Positions 1,633 through 17,809 of a stretch of 47,297 bases of DNA are shown piece after piece. The position numbers were made by a program, and so were the translations under genes. The stretch's first letter is position 1, and every line of letters starts with the position of its first letter. The notes beneath the pieces were generated by a model that made no database searches, was not told the origin of the DNA, and saw only the letters and a program-made list of their open reading frames with translations. Source of the DNA: Thermodesulfobacteriota bacterium (GTDB lineage Bacteria; Desulfobacterota; BSN033; UBA1163); assembly GCA_030017685.1 (NCBI GenBank), contig JASEHH010000017.1:1-47297 (forward strand), in the 5' to 3' direction.

Positions 1633-3210
1633 TTAACCGTCTTCTTCTTTCAAGAGTTTGTAATCGATCGAATCCACCAGGGCCTGCCAGCTTGCCTCGA
1701 TAATATTCTCAGAAACCCCTACGGTTCCCCATTTCGACTCTCCATCTCCGGATTCGATCAGGACTCTCGTCTGTGCGGCTGTCCCATCTTTGGTGGTGAG
1801 TATTCTCACTTTGTAATCCAGGAGTTTAACCTCTTTCAATTCAGGGTAGAACTTTTCAAGGGCTTTGCGGATGGCATTATCGAGCGCATTGACAGGGCCA
1901 TTTCCAACGGCGGCCGTATGTTCGACCTGATCCCCGACACGAACCATGATGGTGGCTTCCGAAAGGGGGAAACCTTCTTCCTCTTTTTTCTCAACGATCA
2001 CCCGAAATCCCAGGAGCTCAAAGAATTTCTTGTGCTTTCCGAGGGCCTTCTTGACCAGGATCTCAAAGGAGCCCTCCGCTCCTTCAAATTGAAATCCCTC
2101 GTGTTCGAGTTTTTTTAAGTTGTCCAAGATTGTGCGGACGTTGGGGTCTTTGCTTTCGAGGTCGATTCCGAACTCGGCTGCCTTGTAAAGAATGTTCGAT
2201 TCTCCAGAAAGATCGGAGATGAGAACCCTCTGACGATTTCCAACCTGTTCGGGCTGGATATGTTCATAGGTGAGGGCGCTTTTCCGGATGGCGCTCACAT
2301 GGACGCCTCCTTTATGGGCGAAGGCGCTATCGCCCACATAGGGCAGATACTTCGGATGAGGCAGATTCGCCAGTTCCGAGACGAAGCGGGAGACCTCGGT
2401 CATCTTCTTGAGCTGGGTATCGGTCATACAGTCCAGCCCCATCTTCAATTTGAGATTGGGAATGATGGAGCAGAGATTGGCATTGCCGCATCGTTCACCA
2501 TAGCCATTGATCGTTCCCTGAACCTGTGTGATCCCTTCTCTCACAGCAAGAAGGGAATTGGCCACTGCCATCTCGGCATCGTTATGGACGTGGATGCCGA
2601 GGGGCACAGTGATTTCCTTCTTCACTTCTCGAATGGCCATCTGAAGGTCGTAAGGGAGGGCGCCCCCGTTCGTGTCACAGAGCACGATCCAATCGGCCCT
2701 CGCTTCCTGGGTCGCCCTCAGTATGGAAAGGGCATAAGAGGGATTGTTCTTGAATCCGTCGAAAAAGTGCTCTGCATCGAAAATGACTTCTGGAACTTTT
2801 CCCTTGAGAAAGCGGATCGACTGGCAGATGATCTCCAGGTTCTGATCGAGGCTGATGTTTAATGCCTCGAGGGCATGCATATCCCAGGACTTCCCAAAAA
2901 TGGTGACGGCCTCTGTCCCTGCCTCGATCAATGCCTGGAGATTCGGATCATCTTCAGGCGATATCCCCGCCCGGCAGGTGCTTCCAAAGGCAACGATCCT
3001 CGATGCGGAGAGAGAAACAGATTTAATCTCCTGGAAAAACTGGAGGTCCTTCGGGTTGGAGCCAGGCCAACCCCCTTCGATATAGTGGATGCCCAGCTCA
3101 TCGAGTTTTTGGGCAATCCGGACCTTGTCCTCGACGGAGAAGGCAATATCTTCCGCCTGAGAACCATCACGCAGGGTGGTATCGTAAATTTTAATCGATT
3201 GTTTGCTCAA
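1633..3210 (-). CDS. cimA: (R)-citramalate synthase
   Basis: The enzyme condenses pyruvate and acetyl-CoA to citramalate, the entry to the threonine-independent isoleucine route. The 525-aa length and the HMGL-like start [14 protein letters not shown] fit the long CimA family rather than isopropylmalate synthase. The N-terminal TIM barrel (about 5-275) contains the metal-site motif [12 protein letters not shown], and the C-terminal third (about 390-515) is the LeuA-type allosteric domain, the usual site of isoleucine feedback. The frame opens at a TTG at 3231 without a ribosome site. I prefer the TTG at 3208-3210, which has GAGG about 8 bases upstream and gives the usual [16 protein letters not shown] start. 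lysC lies upstream on the same strand, so two branched amino-acid entry enzymes are neighbours. Confidence 0.93.
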
Positions 3211-3231
3211 AAGGATATCCTCGCCATGCAA

Positions 3232-3356
3232 AAATCATTGCAAAATTAGCAATGCAAAATTAACAATTGTCAATGGTGATAAAAATATCTTGCACTAAGT
3301 TGGCTTACTAATCTTTTCATTGCTAACTGTTAATTGCTAATTGATCATTTTGCATT
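3232..3356. repeat. AT-rich inverted-repeat spacer between lysC and cimA
   Basis: The left arm around 3234-3265 (AATGCAAAATTAACAATT words) is complementary to the right arm around 3318-3353 (AACTGTTAATTGCTAATTG ... TTTTGCATT). It belongs to the same style of word-built palindrome found at other junctions of this block. No promoter or gene recognised. Confidence 0.55.
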
Positions 3357-3358
3357 GA

Positions 3359-4597
3359 TTATTTCTCCTCTGTGACGGATGGCTTATCCAGCTCAAAGGC
3401 ATCGTGGAGGGCTCGCACCGCCAGTTCCGTATATTTGGAGCCGATGATGCAGGAAATTTTGATCTCCGAAGTGGAGATCATCTGAATGTTGATCCCCTCC
3501 CTGGCCAGGGCGGAAAACATCTGTGCGGCCACATTGGAATGGCTCCTCATCCCAACGCCAATGATCGATACCTTGGCAATATTTTCATCGGAGAGGACTT
3601 CTTTTCCGCCAATTTCCCTGACGCCCTCCTTCACAATCTGAAGGGCCTTGGAGAAATCGGTCTTGGGAACGGTGAAGGCCAGGTCGGCACAGCCTTTTTC
3701 CGTGCTGGAGGTCTGGATGATCATATCGACCACGATATTGGCATCGGCAATGGGTTTGAATAATTTAGCGGCCACCCCGGGGATATCCGGAACGCGCATG
3801 ATCTCAATCTTTGCTTCATTCTTATTATAAGTCACGCCTGAAACAACCACTCTTTCCATCTCTCTCTCCTCCTTGCAGACAAGGGTTCCGGGATTATCAT
3901 TGAATGACGATCTCACATGAATGGGAACATCGTACTTCTTGGCAAACTCCACAGAGCGGATCTGAAGCACCTTGGCTCCCAGACTGGCCATTTCAAGCAT
4001 CTCATCATAAGAGATCCTGGAAAGCTTCCGGGCCTTGGGGCAGATATTGGGATCGGTCGTATAAACCCCATCGACATCGGTGTAAATTTCACAGACATCC
4101 GCTCTGATGGCGGCCGCCACAGCCACAGCGGTTGTATCGGAACCTCCACGGCCGAGCGTGGTGATATTTTCGGACTCATCCACGCCCTGAAACCCGGCCA
4201 CGACCACCACCCTTCCGTTTCTTAAATCTTCAAGCATCTTCTCCGACTCGATCCCGGTGATGCGGGCCTTGCCAAAGGCGCTGTCCGTAGCAATCTTGAT
4301 CTGAAATCCGAGATACGATTTCGCATCACAGCCCATCGACTTGAGGGTCATCGCAAGCAGGGCAATAGTGACCTGCTCCCCTGTGGAGACGAGAACATCC
4401 ATCTCTCTTTCATCGGGGTCCGGAGTGACCTGCTGGGCCAGTCGGATCAATTTGTCTGTTTCTCCGGCCATCGCTGAAACGACGACGACCACCTGATGCC
4501 CTTGATTTTTGGCGTCGAGGACCCTACGGGCGACATTCTTAATCCGCTCGATATCCCCGACAGAGGTTCCGCCAAACTTTTGAACAACCAATGCCAT
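3359..4597 (-). CDS. lysC: aspartate kinase
   Basis: LysC phosphorylates L-aspartate with ATP, the first step to lysine, threonine, methionine and diaminopimelate. The 412-aa protein opens with the nucleotide-binding motif KFGGTSV (7-13), has the kinase-core segments [14 protein letters not shown] and [14 protein letters not shown], and ends in two ACT domains (about 265-410) that normally bind the feedback amino acid. There is no homoserine dehydrogenase fusion. The ATG at 4595-4597 follows a strong GGGAGGT. It lies between tsaE and cimA on the same strand. I see no room for a lysine riboswitch in the short upstream gap, which holds a palindromic repeat. Control is therefore likely at the enzyme. 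Confidence 0.96.
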
Positions 4598-12769: not shown

Positions 12770-14563
12770 TCAGACTGCCTCATCCTTTATAATCCGTTCG
12801 ATCTGGTTTCCGTCGAGAACCTCTTTTTCGAGGAGGGCGCCGGCCAATCGTTGAAGCGCATCCATATTCCTCTGGATGATCTCTTTCGCTTTTTCGTAAC
12901 TCTGGGTGACGATCCCCCTGATCTCTGCATCGATCAATCGGGCTGTCTCTTCGCTATAATCACGGTGTTGACTAATTTCCCTTCCCAGGAAGATCTGTTC
13001 CTCTTTCTGGCCGAAGGCCAGCGGCCCGAGCTTTTCGCTCATCCCCCATTCACAAACCATCTTTCTGGCGAGTTCGGTGGATCGCTCAATGTCATTGCCG
13101 GCGCCGGTTGTCTGGCTGTTTAAGACCAGTTCCTCCGCAACCCTCCCTCCCATCATGACAGTAATGTTGTTGAGGAGGTAATCCTTCGGGTAAGTATGCT
13201 TCTCATCGATGGGGAGCTGCTGGGTAATTCCCAGGGCCCGGCCTCTCGGAATGATGGTGACCTTGTGAATGGGGTCTGTTCCCGGAATCATCCTGGCCAC
13301 CAGGGTATGGCCTGCCTCATGAAAGGCTGTGATTCTTCGCTCTTCAAGGGGGATGATCATCGATTTTCGTTCCACGCCCATCAGAACCTTATCCTTCGCC
13401 TGTTCAAGGTCGGACATATCAACCCATTCCTTTCCGAGGCGGGCCGCCAGAAGGGCGGCCTCATTGACAAGGTTCTCAAGATCAGCCCCTGTAAATCCTG
13501 GAGTTCCTCTGGCAAGGAGGGATAGCGCGACATCATCGGCTAAAGGAGCTCGTTTCGTGTGGACCTTCAAGATTTCTTCTCTTCCCTTAACATCAGGAAC
13601 CGGGACAACGACCTGACGATCGAACCGTCCGGGCCTGAGGAGTGCGGGGTCCAGAACATCGGGCCGGTTGGTGGCGGCAATCAGGATGACCCCTTCGTTC
13701 GATTCAAAACCATCCATCTCCACCAGCAACTGGTTCAGGGTCTGTTCCCGTTCATCATGGCCTCCTCCCAGTCCTGCTCCCCGGTGTCTTCCTACGGCAT
13801 CGATCTCATCGATGAAGATGATGCAGGGGGCGTTTCTCTTTCCTTGAAGGAAGAGGTCGCGGACACGGGAGGCGCCCACTCCGACGAACATCTCAACGAA
13901 ATCGGAGCCACTGATGCTGAAGAAGGGAACATCGGCTTCACCCGCAATGGCTCTTGCCAGGAGGGTCTTTCCCGTTCCAGGAGCGCCGATGAGAAGAACG
14001 CCTTTGGGTATTCTCCCTCCCAGCTTGGTAAATCTCTTGGGGTCTCTCAGGAAGTCGATGATCTCCTCAAGTTCATCCTTGGCCTCTTCTATTCCGGCCA
14101 CATTATCAAAGGTCACTTTATGTTGTTCTTTGGTGAGGATCTTTGCTTTGCTCTTTCCGAAAGAGAGGGCTTTCCCGCCGCCGATCTGCATTTGCCGCAT
14201 GAAAAAGAGCCAGACACCGATGAGAATAATCATCGGAAACCATGAGATGAGGATGTTCTGCCAGAGAGGAGTTTCTTCTTCCTTCTTGGCATTGATTGCG
14301 ATCTTCTTTTCCCTGATGATTTTTATCATCTCGGGGTCTTCGGGCGCATAGGTTTTGAACCGTTTCCCCTCCGCATCCTTCCAGATGATACTCCTGCCCT
14401 TTGCCTCGACCTCGAGGACCCGATTACTTTCAACCGCATTGATGAAATCGGAATAATTTCTTTCCACAACAGTCTGGCGTGGTTTGTTGAAAAGGTTAAA
14501 GAGGAGAATCATGATGATAATGATGATTGACCAGAAGAGAAGGTTTTTATAGAGGGAATTCAA
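12770..14563 (-). CDS. ftsH: ATP-dependent zinc metalloprotease FtsH
   Basis: FtsH is the membrane-anchored AAA+ protease that degrades misfolded membrane proteins and regulators. The 597-aa protein has two membrane helices (about 9-27 and 106-124), a small periplasmic domain, Walker A GAPGTGKT (193-200), Walker [12 protein letters not shown], the second region of homology [17 protein letters not shown] and the zinc site HEAGH. I chose TTG at 14561-14563 because GGAGG lies five bases upstream and it gives the familiar [11 protein letters not shown] start; the TTG at 14578 places that GGAGG inside the gene. It is the first gene of the minus-strand block and is divergent from the Crp/Fnr gene. 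Confidence 0.97.
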
Positions 14564-14864
14564 ACTATCCTCCTGCAATGAATTTCGATTCAGACTAACA
14601 TAATTCCTTTATCGATTCAATATACTGAACCAGGCGGGATGACCGTCAAAATAAAAAAACATTTCTAAATTACCCATCTAATTATTTGTAATTATTGGAG
14701 AATTATATATTTCGGGCAGGAACGCCCCCTTTTTTGCTTGCAAAAAGAGCAAAAAACCTATAAATTTCAATTTAATTCTGGAATAATGGAATGATGGGTT
14801 AATCCCCAATATTCCATTGTTCCAATATTCCGGTATGTTATCATTCCCGTTGGATAGGTTTCAT
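14564..14864. other. divergent intergenic region between ftsH and the Crp/Fnr gene
   Basis: For ftsH, a minus-strand TTGACG (14644-14649) and TATATT (14619-14624) are possible promoter boxes, but the 19-base spacing is long. For the regulator, TATAAA at 14759-14764 is a possible -10. A hairpin of GGAATAATGGAAT and ATTCCATTGTTCC words lies at about 14780-14823. No gene is visible. Confidence 0.35.
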
Positions 14865-15554
14865 ATGTCGATCGATCTTCTAAAGAGATGTCCGCTTTTT
14901 GCTGGATTAAAGGACGAAGATCTGAAGAGGGTGAGGGCTATTGCCACACTCAGGCAGGTCGGGAAAAGGGAGATCCTCTTCTCCGAGGGTGAAGAGGCAA
15001 AGGGATTCTATGTCATCCTCTCCGGAAAGGTGAAACTCTATAAAATTTCGCCGGAAGGCAAAGAGCAGATCCTCCATGTGGTCTCAGCGCCGGATGCCTT
15101 TGCTGAGGCGGCGCTCTTTCTCGAGGGGACTTACCCCGCCTTTGCCGAACCCTTGAGCGACTGCCAGCTCCTTTACATTCCCAAGAGAGATTTTATTCAG
15201 TTGATTGAGAGGAATCCTCAGCTCAGCATCAATATGATCGTCTCCCTTTCTCACTATCTGAGGCGGTTTGCCTCTCTGATCGAAGAGCTTTCATTGAAAG
15301 AGGTCTCCTCACGGATTGCAAAATATCTGCTCGATCTCTCCATGAAGTTGTCAAAAGAGGGGAAGGATCCAAAGGAGGTTGAACTCGATCTGAGCAAGAC
15401 TCAACTGGCTTCAAAACTTGGAACGATCAGTGAAACTTTGTCAAGGACCCTGGCCAAAATGAAGGCGAAGGGAATCATCGATGTGAAGAAGAATAAAATA
15501 CTCATTCTGAATCGAGAGGCATTGGAAGAGCTGTCTTCAGGGTTGAAAATATGA
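14865..15554 (+). CDS. Crp/Fnr-family transcriptional regulator
   Basis: The 229-aa protein has a cyclic-nucleotide-binding-like sensor domain (about 8-125), a dimer helix (about 126-155) and a winged helix-turn-helix (about 170-215). The recognition helix ISETLSRTLAKM carries E190, S193 and R194, the E-xx-SR pattern that in FNR and DNR contacts TTGAT half-sites. Only two cysteines are present (C9, C100), so it has no FNR-type iron-sulfur cluster; a DNR-like, haem or other effector is possible. I use the ATG at 14865-14867; the frame opens at TTG 14817 in a hairpin. A perfect TTGAT-N4-ATCAA site occurs at 46955-46968. Confidence 0.88.
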   Translation: MSIDLLKRCPLFAGLKDEDLKRVRAIATLRQVGKREILFSEGEEAKGFYVILSGKVKLYKISPEGKEQILHVVSAPDAFAEAALFLEGTYPAFAEPLSDCQLLYIPKRDFIQLIERNPQLSINMIVSLSHYLRRFASLIEELSLKEVSSRIAKYLLDLSMKLSKEGKDPKEVELDLSKTQLASKLGTISETLSRTLAKMKAKGIIDVKKNKILILNREALEELSSGLKI

Positions 15555-16007
15555 ATAAACCATTTATAGGCGAAGAGGGCCATCCCATCATTGCAAGATT
15601 ATTTTTTTCTCCACTCCCCACGGTGCCGTTCGTTTTTATTTTCTGATCCATTGCCTTAAACCGCTCCAAACTACTGAAGAGATCTTCGATATACGAATGT
15701 CAGAGGTGCTTTATCGACTTTGCTGTGTGAGGGCGCAGGAATTTAACAGAGGACAAATTTGCAAGGAAATGACAAATTGTCGATCATTTTTCTCTTGCAA
15801 TTTCAATCGATTAACAAAATATTTAAAAAATTTGGACAATATGTACCATTCTGTTCTGTTCCCCTCTCTATAGTTCGCATTAAAGTTCCTTTTAAATTCC
15901 TTTTTAAATTCAATAAATTAAAAAATATTTGCCCGCAAAATCCTTTCAGGTATGAAAATTGCTTAACTTATTGTCAAACAATCTGATGAATCCGAAAGGA
16001 GATTTAA
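15555..16007. other. long AT-rich leader upstream of two micro-ORFs
   Basis: No convincing gene; a 75-codon frame at 15759-15986 has no ribosome site and low-complexity composition. The stretch holds two small inverted repeats, GACAA-A-TTGTC (15771-15781), preceded by a direct half copy GACAAATTTG at 15752, and ATTGT-CAA-ACAAT (15970-15982), which could be operators. No clear promoter could be picked. Confidence 0.4.
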
Positions 16008-16118
16008 ATGAATTCAATGGTTTTTGAACTGGCATCTGCAAATTTCATCACCATCTGTTTGATTGTTTTCGGCGCCTTTGGCGTCTTGCGGATGGCTAAA
16101 ACTTATCTCGAAAGTTAA
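16008..16118 (+). CDS. 36-aa single-pass membrane micro-protein
   Basis: Not a recognised family. The frame encodes 36 residues, nearly all one hydrophobic helix (about 5-28, ASANFITICLIVFGAFGVLR) followed by a short positive tail, MAKTYLES. The case for a real gene is the excellent Shine-Dalgarno AAGGAGATTTAA directly before the ATG, and the next micro-ORF only 19 bases downstream with its own strong Shine-Dalgarno and a shared terminator. The size and layout recall accessory subunits of membrane complexes such as CydX or CcoQ, but there is no sequence basis for assigning one. Confidence 0.65.
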   Translation: MNSMVFELASANFITICLIVFGAFGVLRMAKTYLES

Positions 16119-16137
16119 ATATTTTTGGAGGTTTCAT

Positions 16138-16290
16138 ATGAATGCAAATCAGGCTTTAAGTATTTGTGATGTTGAAGAGGGAGTGAGAAGGGTTGAGATC
16201 AACCCTAAAAGAGTTGCCGAGTGGGTATTAATCTTTACCAACATTTTTTTCATCTCATATTTTTTTGGAAGATTGTTACGGATTTTTTAA
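16138..16290 (+). CDS. 50-aa membrane micro-protein, second of the pair
   Basis: Not a recognised family. The 50 residues have a soluble, charged N-terminal half (ICDVEEGVRRVEINPKR) and a C-terminal hydrophobic helix (about 28-46, WVLIFTNIFFISYFFGRLL). The predicted orientation is N-terminus in the cytoplasm by the positive-inside rule, with weak support because RLLR also ends the helix. The ATG at 16138 follows GGAGG at six bases. It lies 19 bases after the 36-aa gene, and a strong intrinsic terminator follows, so the two form a small operon. Confidence 0.7.
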   Translation: MNANQALSICDVEEGVRRVEINPKRVAEWVLIFTNIFFISYFFGRLLRIF

Positions 16291-16346
16291 AACTCTTTCT
16301 TTGAATTAAAGACTTCAATCCCCAACCTCCTTTAACCTCTAACCCG

Positions 16347-16393
16347 AGAAGGGCGATCATCTCTGAAATTGAGATGGTCGCCCTTCTTTTTTT
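16347..16393 (+). terminator. rho-independent terminator of the micro-ORF operon
   Basis: A 17-bp stem (16347-16363 with 16371-16387, one G-T wobble; AGAAGGGCGATCATCTC) with a 7-base loop is followed by a run of seven T. This is the clearest terminator in the window. Confidence 0.9.
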
Positions 16394-16445
16394 GGTAACC
16401 TTTTGGCGCTTTGGAAATTGATTGGTGATTTAGCCCAATAAGTTT

Positions 16446-16592
16446 GTCATTCCTGCCCCGTAACAAAGTACGGGATAAACTCCAGCAGGAATCCAGGGAT
16501 TTTTATCTTATGGTTCCCTGCTTTCGCAGGGACAGCGTCTGGATTCCCGTTCCCCGATTGATACCTTCGAGGACAAGTTTCACGGAAATGAC
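16446..16592. repeat. GTCATTCC...GGAATGAC-type dispersed repeat, copy 1
   Basis: Starts GTCATTCCTGCCCCG and ends with a diverged CGGAAATGACA, with inner GGAATCCAG / CTGGATTCC arms. It is the longest copy in the window. Confidence 0.65.
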
Positions 16593-16704
16593 ATCAGTGG
16601 AGGCTTTTTCAAAACTAAAGTGTTACCTTTTTTAAAGAGTTGAATTTTGAGTCGATTTGTTCTATTTGTAAGACGACAGTAGATTTGTCTGTTAACGGTT
16701 AGAG

Positions 16705-16864
16705 TGTAGTGCGTCAAAAATCCCTTTACTATGCTTGTCATTCCTGCCCCGTAACAAAGTACGGGATAAACTCCAGCAGGAATCCAGAAAAACAGAGACT
16801 GGATGCCGCATCAAGTGTGGCATGACATGCCAACCAAAAGTAAAGAAGCGTTAGACGCACTACA
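16705..16864. repeat. nested MITE-like element with terminal inverted repeats
   Basis: The perfect 11-base terminal inverted repeats TGTAGTGCGTC (16705-16715) and GACGCACTACA (16854-16864) extend imperfectly to about 26 bases (both end in a CTTTACT / AGTAAAG word). They enclose a second GTCATTCCTG...CATGAC repeat (about 16737-16827). No transposase is present. No obvious target-site duplication could be confirmed by eye. Confidence 0.55.
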
Positions 16865-16888
16865 AGAGTGATTTTAAGAGATGAGTTG

Positions 16889-17809
16889 ATGAAGCTGAAA
16901 TTTTACATTGCGGCGTGGTGGAGACTCTCACGGGTTCCTTTTCTTTCGGTCGGGGTGTTTCCTCTAATTCTGGGATTTGTCCTCGCATGGCGATGGGGTT
17001 ACCAAGGCCCTCTCGGGCTCTATCTCGTTGCAACAGTGACGGTCGTTCTCATCATGTGGATGACCTATTATCTGGGTGAATGGAATGACCTTGAGGGCGA
17101 TCGCCTCAATCAAGAGTTTAACCGGTTTTCAGGCGGGTCAAGAATACTGGTCGAGGGAATTCTTCCGGTCCCGGTTCCGCTCCTTCTCGGCTATGGATGC
17201 CTTGCAGGGGGGATCCTGGCCGGCCTTTATCTCTATCTCCGGTATCAAACCGGTCCCTGGACCCTTATCCTCGGAGGGATAGGCATCTTTTCCGGTTTTT
17301 TCTATTCAGGGAGACCCTTCCGATGGGGCTACCGGGGAATAGGAGAAGTCCTGATTGGAGTCTGTTATGGCTGGCTTCCAATTGCGACAGGATTTTATCT
17401 CTTTTCCGGTTTTTTCAGTCATCAAGCCTTTTTACTTTCTATTCCAGTAGGGTTGTCGATCTTCAATGTGATCCTGATCAATGAGTTTCCGGACGAAGAG
17501 GCGGATCGTGCTATTGGTAAGAGGAACCTGGTCGTTCGATTCGGAAAGGAGAGGATGACCGACCTCTATATGGGGCTCTCCATTTTGGTCGGCCTCTTCT
17601 TCATTAAAATGCTAATAATTTTCGGGAAAAGCTCATGGCTATTTGCCATTTCAGCCATCCCCATCTTTCTTATCCTTTGGAATCTCCTGATGGCCTGGCA
17701 AGAGGCCTATCGTGAGGCAAAGAGGCTTGAGCTTCTCTGTAGAAACACCCTTTTGGTCAATCTTACGATGACCATGATTCTTACCCTGCAGCAGACAATA
17801 TCCCCATAA
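16889..17809 (+). CDS. UbiA-family prenyltransferase (MenA-like)
   Basis: A polytopic 306-aa membrane protein with about eight or nine helices and the two aspartate-rich motifs of the UbiA superfamily: NDLEGDRLNQ (about 66-75) and NEFPDEEADRAIGKRNLVVRFG (about 204-225). The second motif, with GKRxLxVRxG, is closest to MenA-type enzymes, which prenylate dihydroxynaphthoate for menaquinone. The substrate cannot be fixed from sequence, and no other quinone gene is nearby. I use the ATG at 16889 rather than the GTG at 16868. The next gene starts 47 bases downstream on the same strand. Confidence 0.85.
   Translation: MKLKFYIAAWWRLSRVPFLSVGVFPLILGFVLAWRWGYQGPLGLYLVATVTVVLIMWMTYYLGEWNDLEGDRLNQEFNRFSGGSRILVEGILPVPVPLLLGYGCLAGGILAGLYLYLRYQTGPWTLILGGIGIFSGFFYSGRPFRWGYRGIGEVLIGVCYGWLPIATGFYLFSGFFSHQAFLLSIPVGLSIFNVILINEFPDEEADRAIGKRNLVVRFGKERMTDLYMGLSILVGLFFIKMLIIFGKSSWLFAISAIPIFLILWNLLMAWQEAYREAKRLELLCRNTLLVNLTMTMILTLQQTISP

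Follow-up and report, generated by a model that had tools for sequence, protein, structure and literature searches.

The locus and its two micro-proteins

Two adjacent open reading frames, ORF1 and ORF2, make up a small operon in the window (the whole 47,297-nucleotide stretch of DNA that was analysed), and the features assigned to it are collected in Table 1. Each frame is preceded by a Shine-Dalgarno (SD) sequence and encodes a single hydrophobic stretch, as the original prediction had it, with best 19-residue Kyte-Doolittle means of 2.1 for ORF1 and 1.6 for ORF2. One long helix was predicted for each protein by AlphaFold, spanning residues 2–35 in ORF1 (pLDDT 93) and residues 23–49 in ORF2 (pLDDT 74 for the whole protein), the start of ORF2 having been corrected to 16138. 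Residues E20, I21, R25, L31, F33, T34, N35 and F37 of ORF2 never vary; charged positions beside the membrane give way to polar ones within the helix, and this invariant pattern would fit packing of the helix on a partner. Neither protein matched a model in Pfam (at cut-off) or NCBIfam, in agreement with the earlier suspicion that they belong to no known family, and they constitute two micro-protein families that are absent from current libraries and previously undescribed. The pair may represent subunits of a membrane complex or a regulatory pair.

Table 1. Features of the micro-protein operon and its control region, with positions in the window.
Feature	Position	Strand	Description
Distal enhancer-like half site GACAAATTTGC	15752..15762	.	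About 19 bp before the next site
Enhancer site (UAS) GACAAATTGTC	15771..15781	.	178 bp upstream of the sigma-54 -24 element
Proximal enhancer site GACAATATGTA	15835..15845	.	About -114; kept near -90 to -114 in most relatives
AT-rich IHF-like box AATTCAATAAATTA	15907..15920	+	Between enhancer and promoter; conserved in the promoter alignment
Sigma-54 promoter -24/-12 GGTATGAAAATTGC	15949..15962	+	GG-N10-GC ahead of the operon in every relative examined
ORF1	16008..16118	+	36-aa single-helix membrane micro-protein; SD AAAGGAG; predicted helix
ORF2	16138..16290	+	50-aa membrane micro-protein; SD GGAGG; invariant EI..R and in-membrane LxFTNxF
3'-UTR element TCCCCAACCTCCTTTAACCTCTAACC with anti-SD-like CCTCCTTT	16319..16344	+	26 nt before the terminator
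Intrinsic terminator hairpin	16346..16388	+	18-bp stem, then T tract

Conservation and genomic context

The ORF1–ORF2 pair occurs together and in single copy in 15 of the 17 genomes of the window's family; a profile search found ORF1 in 15 of these 17, always immediately upstream of ORF2. With the 50-residue ORF2 as query, relatives were found in 14 of 16 other genomes of the same genus or family at 41–90% identity. Differences summed over pairs fell on codon positions 1, 2 and 3 in the numbers 231, 83 and 505 for ORF1 and 329, 283 and 624 for ORF2, and synonymous codon changes were more frequent than random substitution would predict in every comparison except the shortest. Because relatives co-occur and changes concentrate at third codon positions, the ORFs are not chance frames, and purifying selection on both proteins is evident from the alignments. 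The original prediction had named a lack of homologues and of synonymous bias as the point on which it would fall; homologues and a third-position bias are both present. The operon is missing from two family genomes (G001 and G012) despite their completeness of 90–97%. At one further locus (L009, in G004), ORF2 lacks a start and ORF1 a stop, and the loss of the ORF2 start goes together with a 3' element that has drifted through extra changes; this copy of the operon is decaying, to judge from its sequence. In a search of 395 genomes of the phylum, those outside the family gave weak partial matches only, and no relatives of the ORFs were found in viral contigs. All named genome records with relatives belong to Syntrophaceae, Deltaproteobacteria or uncultured metagenome-assembled genomes.

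The neighbours of the operon vary among relatives. FtsH and Crp/Fnr genes lie upstream in one subclade only, while other relatives carry there an enzyme gene, either BKACE-like or of another kind, and branched-chain transporter genes. In relatives without FtsH–Crp/Fnr, a UbiA prenyltransferase is found downstream of the operon, directly or a few genes later. Control by Crp/Fnr was rejected, the regulator lying upstream only in the FtsH-linked subclade and other genes occupying that place elsewhere; the link originally drawn to this regulator is not conserved, and since it is found in only one subclade the neighbour is incidental. The operon has retained its own promoter and terminator throughout, although the upstream neighbours differ, and the self-contained bicistronic unit that had been proposed therefore fits, with Crp/Fnr dropped as a specific clue.

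Several relatives (L041, L042, L044, L049 and L050) have, no more than about 10 kb from the operon, a Zra/Cpx-like cluster that encodes Spy-like periplasmic proteins, a histidine kinase and an NtrC-type activator. Zra-like control by such a nearby Spy/CpxP–kinase–activator cluster was considered and rejected, the sigma-54 promoter of the Spy-like gene being without GACAnnnTGTC. The window also harbours a CATTCCTGCCCCGTAACAAAGTACGGGATAAACTCCAGCAGGAATCCAG repeat, in nearly the same form at 16448–16490 and at 16737–16790, which appears to be dispersed and intergenic.

Sigma-54 promoter, enhancer sites and regulon

The DNA ahead of ORF1 has the hallmarks of a sigma-54 promoter of the enhancer type, with GG and GC at 10-bp spacing and upstream sites within 80–200 bp; in L008 the promoter takes the form GGCACAACTCTTGC. 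From its position transcription should start near 15974, giving a 5' UTR of only about 34 nt, and most of what had been described as a 450-base leader consists of promoter and enhancer sequence. The small inverted repeats reported from that leader do exist, but they are the enhancer-type GACAnnnTGTC sites rather than leader features. These sites, at 15771 and 15835, keep their position among relatives in the promoter alignment; the distal half site is aligned with GACANNNTTG-like sequences in relatives (L003 reads GACAGAATTGTC), and the IHF-like box AATTCAATAAATTA is near WATCAANNNNTTR. Genome-wide, 42 matches to the sigma-54 pattern GGYAYRNNNNTTGCW were counted, compared with 14 to its reversed form; flagellar, glutamine-synthetase-like and pilin genes are among the former.

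Only three sigma-54-like promoters, out of 41 identified genome-wide, had a perfect GACANNNTGTC no further than 260 bp away (shuffle expectation 0.003 per promoter): that of the micro-protein operon and those of two pilV-pilW-pilX-pilY1 operons. When the enhancer and promoter were searched for as a pair in the 17 family genomes, 40 matches were obtained, 14 of the distal and 26 of the proximal form, against none of either form for reversed-pattern controls. The genes behind these pairs are the micro-protein operon, pilV operons, PAS histidine kinases and PilZ-domain proteins, together with RodZ-like (HTH_25) proteins, a 60-residue HTH_17 protein, one MotB and a few unassigned genes; pilV-type operons with the same sites occur in G000, G002, G007 and G008, and the PilW and PilY1 domains were confirmed in G000. 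Since the enhancer–promoter pair is rare and is shared with pilus and motility genes, the micro-proteins fall within a type IV pilus/motility regulon, and these genome comparisons support well the assignment of the operon to such a sigma-54, enhancer-driven group of genes.

In the window's genome a PAS kinase and a receiver–sigma-54 activator–HTH_8 protein are encoded as a pair directly upstream of pilM, with the activator gene at L179:1057-2436, and the activator of the regulon is probably of this PilR type, one candidate among the 21 strong sigma-54 activators of the genome. PilR sites are marked by TGT-N11-AGA and GTCT (PMC6058289); at the present sites TGTC half sites are found in a different arrangement.

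The excisionase-like HTH_17 protein stands under GACAnnnTGTC/sigma-54 control in many family genomes (L192, L197, L200, L204–L207, L209 and L210; L070 in the window's genome), and this conserved protein is a possible downstream regulator. At another locus (L163, about 2550–3373), genes for small membrane proteins, 92 and 98 residues long, come after the gene of a sigma-54 activator; by eye these proteins are unrelated to ORF1 and ORF2.

Terminator and 3'-UTR element

The terminator behind ORF2 had been called the strongest in the window; it is real, and its rank holds as scanned over 3 kb (14500–17500), where it was the strongest match. Across eight genomes 93.6% of the pair cells of its stem are kept, with some compensatory changes. 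The element that precedes it is conserved far more strongly than the ORFs: among the eight genus members TCCCCARCCTCCTTTAACCTCTAACC has a mean pairwise identity of 98%, compared with 71% for ORF2 and 74% for ORF1 (56% and 51% at third positions), while the best 26-nt window within an ORF reaches 84% and the flank immediately preceding the element 44%. No other part of the transcript is as well conserved in the aligned genomes as this untranslated element, and conservation so far above that of the proteins suggests an RNA end with a job of its own. Each matching genus genome has a single occurrence of the 19-nt core, and the rest of the 395 phylum genomes have none; the possibility of a multi-copy repeat was rejected, the element being single-copy in the genomes searched.

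Within the element lies CCUCCUUU, which is identical to the anti-SD at the 3' end of 16S rRNA, and SD pairing in trans is therefore a natural hypothesis. The element is unpaired and outside the terminator, with one copy of the motif in no conserved hairpin, and it matched no family in Rfam. Masking of the operon's own SD sequences was rejected, as duplex energies were no better than those of the shuffled motif except at L009 and L013. A search of the genome for extended trans targets (at most 3 mismatches over 19 nt) gave none beyond the control level.

Discussion

Our preferred reading, to which we assign a probability of about 0.5, is that of a sigma-54- and enhancer-driven operon in the pilus/motility regulon of a Syntrophaceae-like family, which would give rise to a two-subunit membrane module and a 3'-UTR regulatory RNA. 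We infer the identity of the activator, the membrane topology, the formation of a complex and the molecular actions of proteins and RNA as follows. A PilR-type activator on the GACAnnnTGTC sites would loop to the sigma-54 promoter and start an mRNA of about 0.4 kb, probably under conditions that demand the pilus system, and this mRNA would encode two single-pass inner-membrane micro-proteins. These would most likely form one hetero-oligomeric module, whose target would be the pilus machine itself or a membrane sensor in control of it. The 3' end, consisting of the hyper-conserved, unpaired CCUCCUUU element and the terminator hairpin, would most likely be a 3'-UTR-derived regulatory RNA that pairs in trans with SD regions.

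The presence of structural pilus and motility genes in the regulon would also suit a micro-protein pair with a purely structural or assembly role in the type IV pilus, or in some other machinery of the envelope, as would the invariant polar T34–N35 in the membrane helix of ORF2, which suggests packing on a partner. The element would then only protect or terminate the mRNA, for instance as a protein-binding or processing site, with no activity in trans, in keeping with the failure to find a long trans target in the genome. Such a role is possible, if somewhat unlikely, since 26 nt at 98% identity outside the hairpin exceed what termination needs, while the hairpin itself varies.

The micro-proteins may instead regulate the two-component sensor of the pilus within the membrane and feed back on their own regulon, a special case of the protein part of the preferred reading. 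The pilin of Pseudomonas is thought to regulate PilS in the membrane, a membrane histidine kinase is found in the same putative regulon, and the micro-proteins are, as modelled, little beyond membrane helices. The kinase gene is nevertheless unlinked to the operon and any contact between the partners is putative, and we regard this version as unlikely.

Conservation of the element could also be a by-product of an overlapping gene. At the four g4 loci (L048–L051), the element, in a shorter form reading TCCCAGCCTCCTTCAAC, and the terminator lie antisense within the final codons of a convergent isochorismatase-family gene that is still intact (PF00857, 3.4e-31). The protein it encodes can be aligned, up to its last residue, with the C-terminus of solved relatives, and the element might be conserved only as present or past antisense of the 3' end of this gene. 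That is improbable: a tblastn search around the operon in the genus genomes gave no isochorismatase, and stops interrupt the antisense frame where the isochorismatase codons once lay, yet the 26 nt are kept. The most economical account of these loci, though not a proven one, would be that the 3' end of the transcript arose as antisense to an older gene and was retained once that gene had disappeared. Joined to the preferred reading, this would yield a dual-function transcript of the pilus regulon that encodes two micro-proteins and ends in a 16S-anti-SD-mimicking RNA derived from isochorismatase antisense, coupling activation of the pilus to repression of translation elsewhere, a combined proposal that we consider rather doubtful. 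A type I toxin-antitoxin-like locus, made up of a small hydrophobic toxin and an RNA, would account for the hydrophobic peptides and the RNA element beside them. It is very improbable, however: the two proteins are co-conserved in single copy behind a promoter of the sigma-54/pilus regulon, and no antisense RNA gene, RNA family match or relative in viral contigs was seen.

Two micro-protein families absent from the libraries are added here to a pilus/motility regulon, and experiments become possible on proteins that would otherwise be written off as chance reading frames. The 3' element, if functional, would be a regulatory RNA that has outlived the loss of an overlapping gene.

Comparison with known systems

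To our knowledge, no micro-protein operon has been described as a member of a PilR/sigma-54 regulon. The pilus regulons of Pseudomonas aeruginosa and Geobacter sulfurreducens (PMC6058289, PMC2725144) share with the present one sigma-54 promoters, an NtrC-type activator linked to pilus genes and the membership of minor pilin/PilY1 and motility genes. Expression of pilV, pilW and pilY1 is also altered in pilR mutants of P. aeruginosa, possibly indirectly (PMC6058289). The system described here differs in its enhancer, which is a GACAnnnTGTC palindrome, and in its activator, which is putative.

Single-helix accessory micro-proteins such as CydX, KdpF and the like are 30–50 residues long, with one membrane helix, and are encoded in operons. 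ORF1 and ORF2 share this size, the single helix and the coding in an operon, but they have no sequence match to such proteins and are not encoded with a large partner.

The 3' RNA of the cuckoo/CIN1 loci carries a CCUCC anti-SD motif, and in the present operon such a motif likewise lies 3' of a small-protein gene and is followed by a terminator. These alphaproteobacterial loci, which encode the DUF1127 micro-protein CcaF1 and the sRNAs CcsR1-4 (PMC10253847), further share the co-transcription of a small-protein gene with a 3' RNA, a Rho-independent terminator at the end and an alternative sigma factor. The differences are that two membrane proteins stand here in place of DUF1127 (no Pfam match at cut-off), that several motif hairpins there contrast with one unpaired copy without an Rfam match here, and that RpoH and stress are replaced by sigma-54 and a pilus regulon in a different phylum. 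By analogy, the operon resembles the cuckoo/CIN1 loci as a unit in which micro-proteins and an RNA are combined, but it lacks the defining features of that family, and if this likeness is true, the architecture of a tiny protein with an anti-SD RNA would extend past the alphaproteobacteria and to sigma-54 control.
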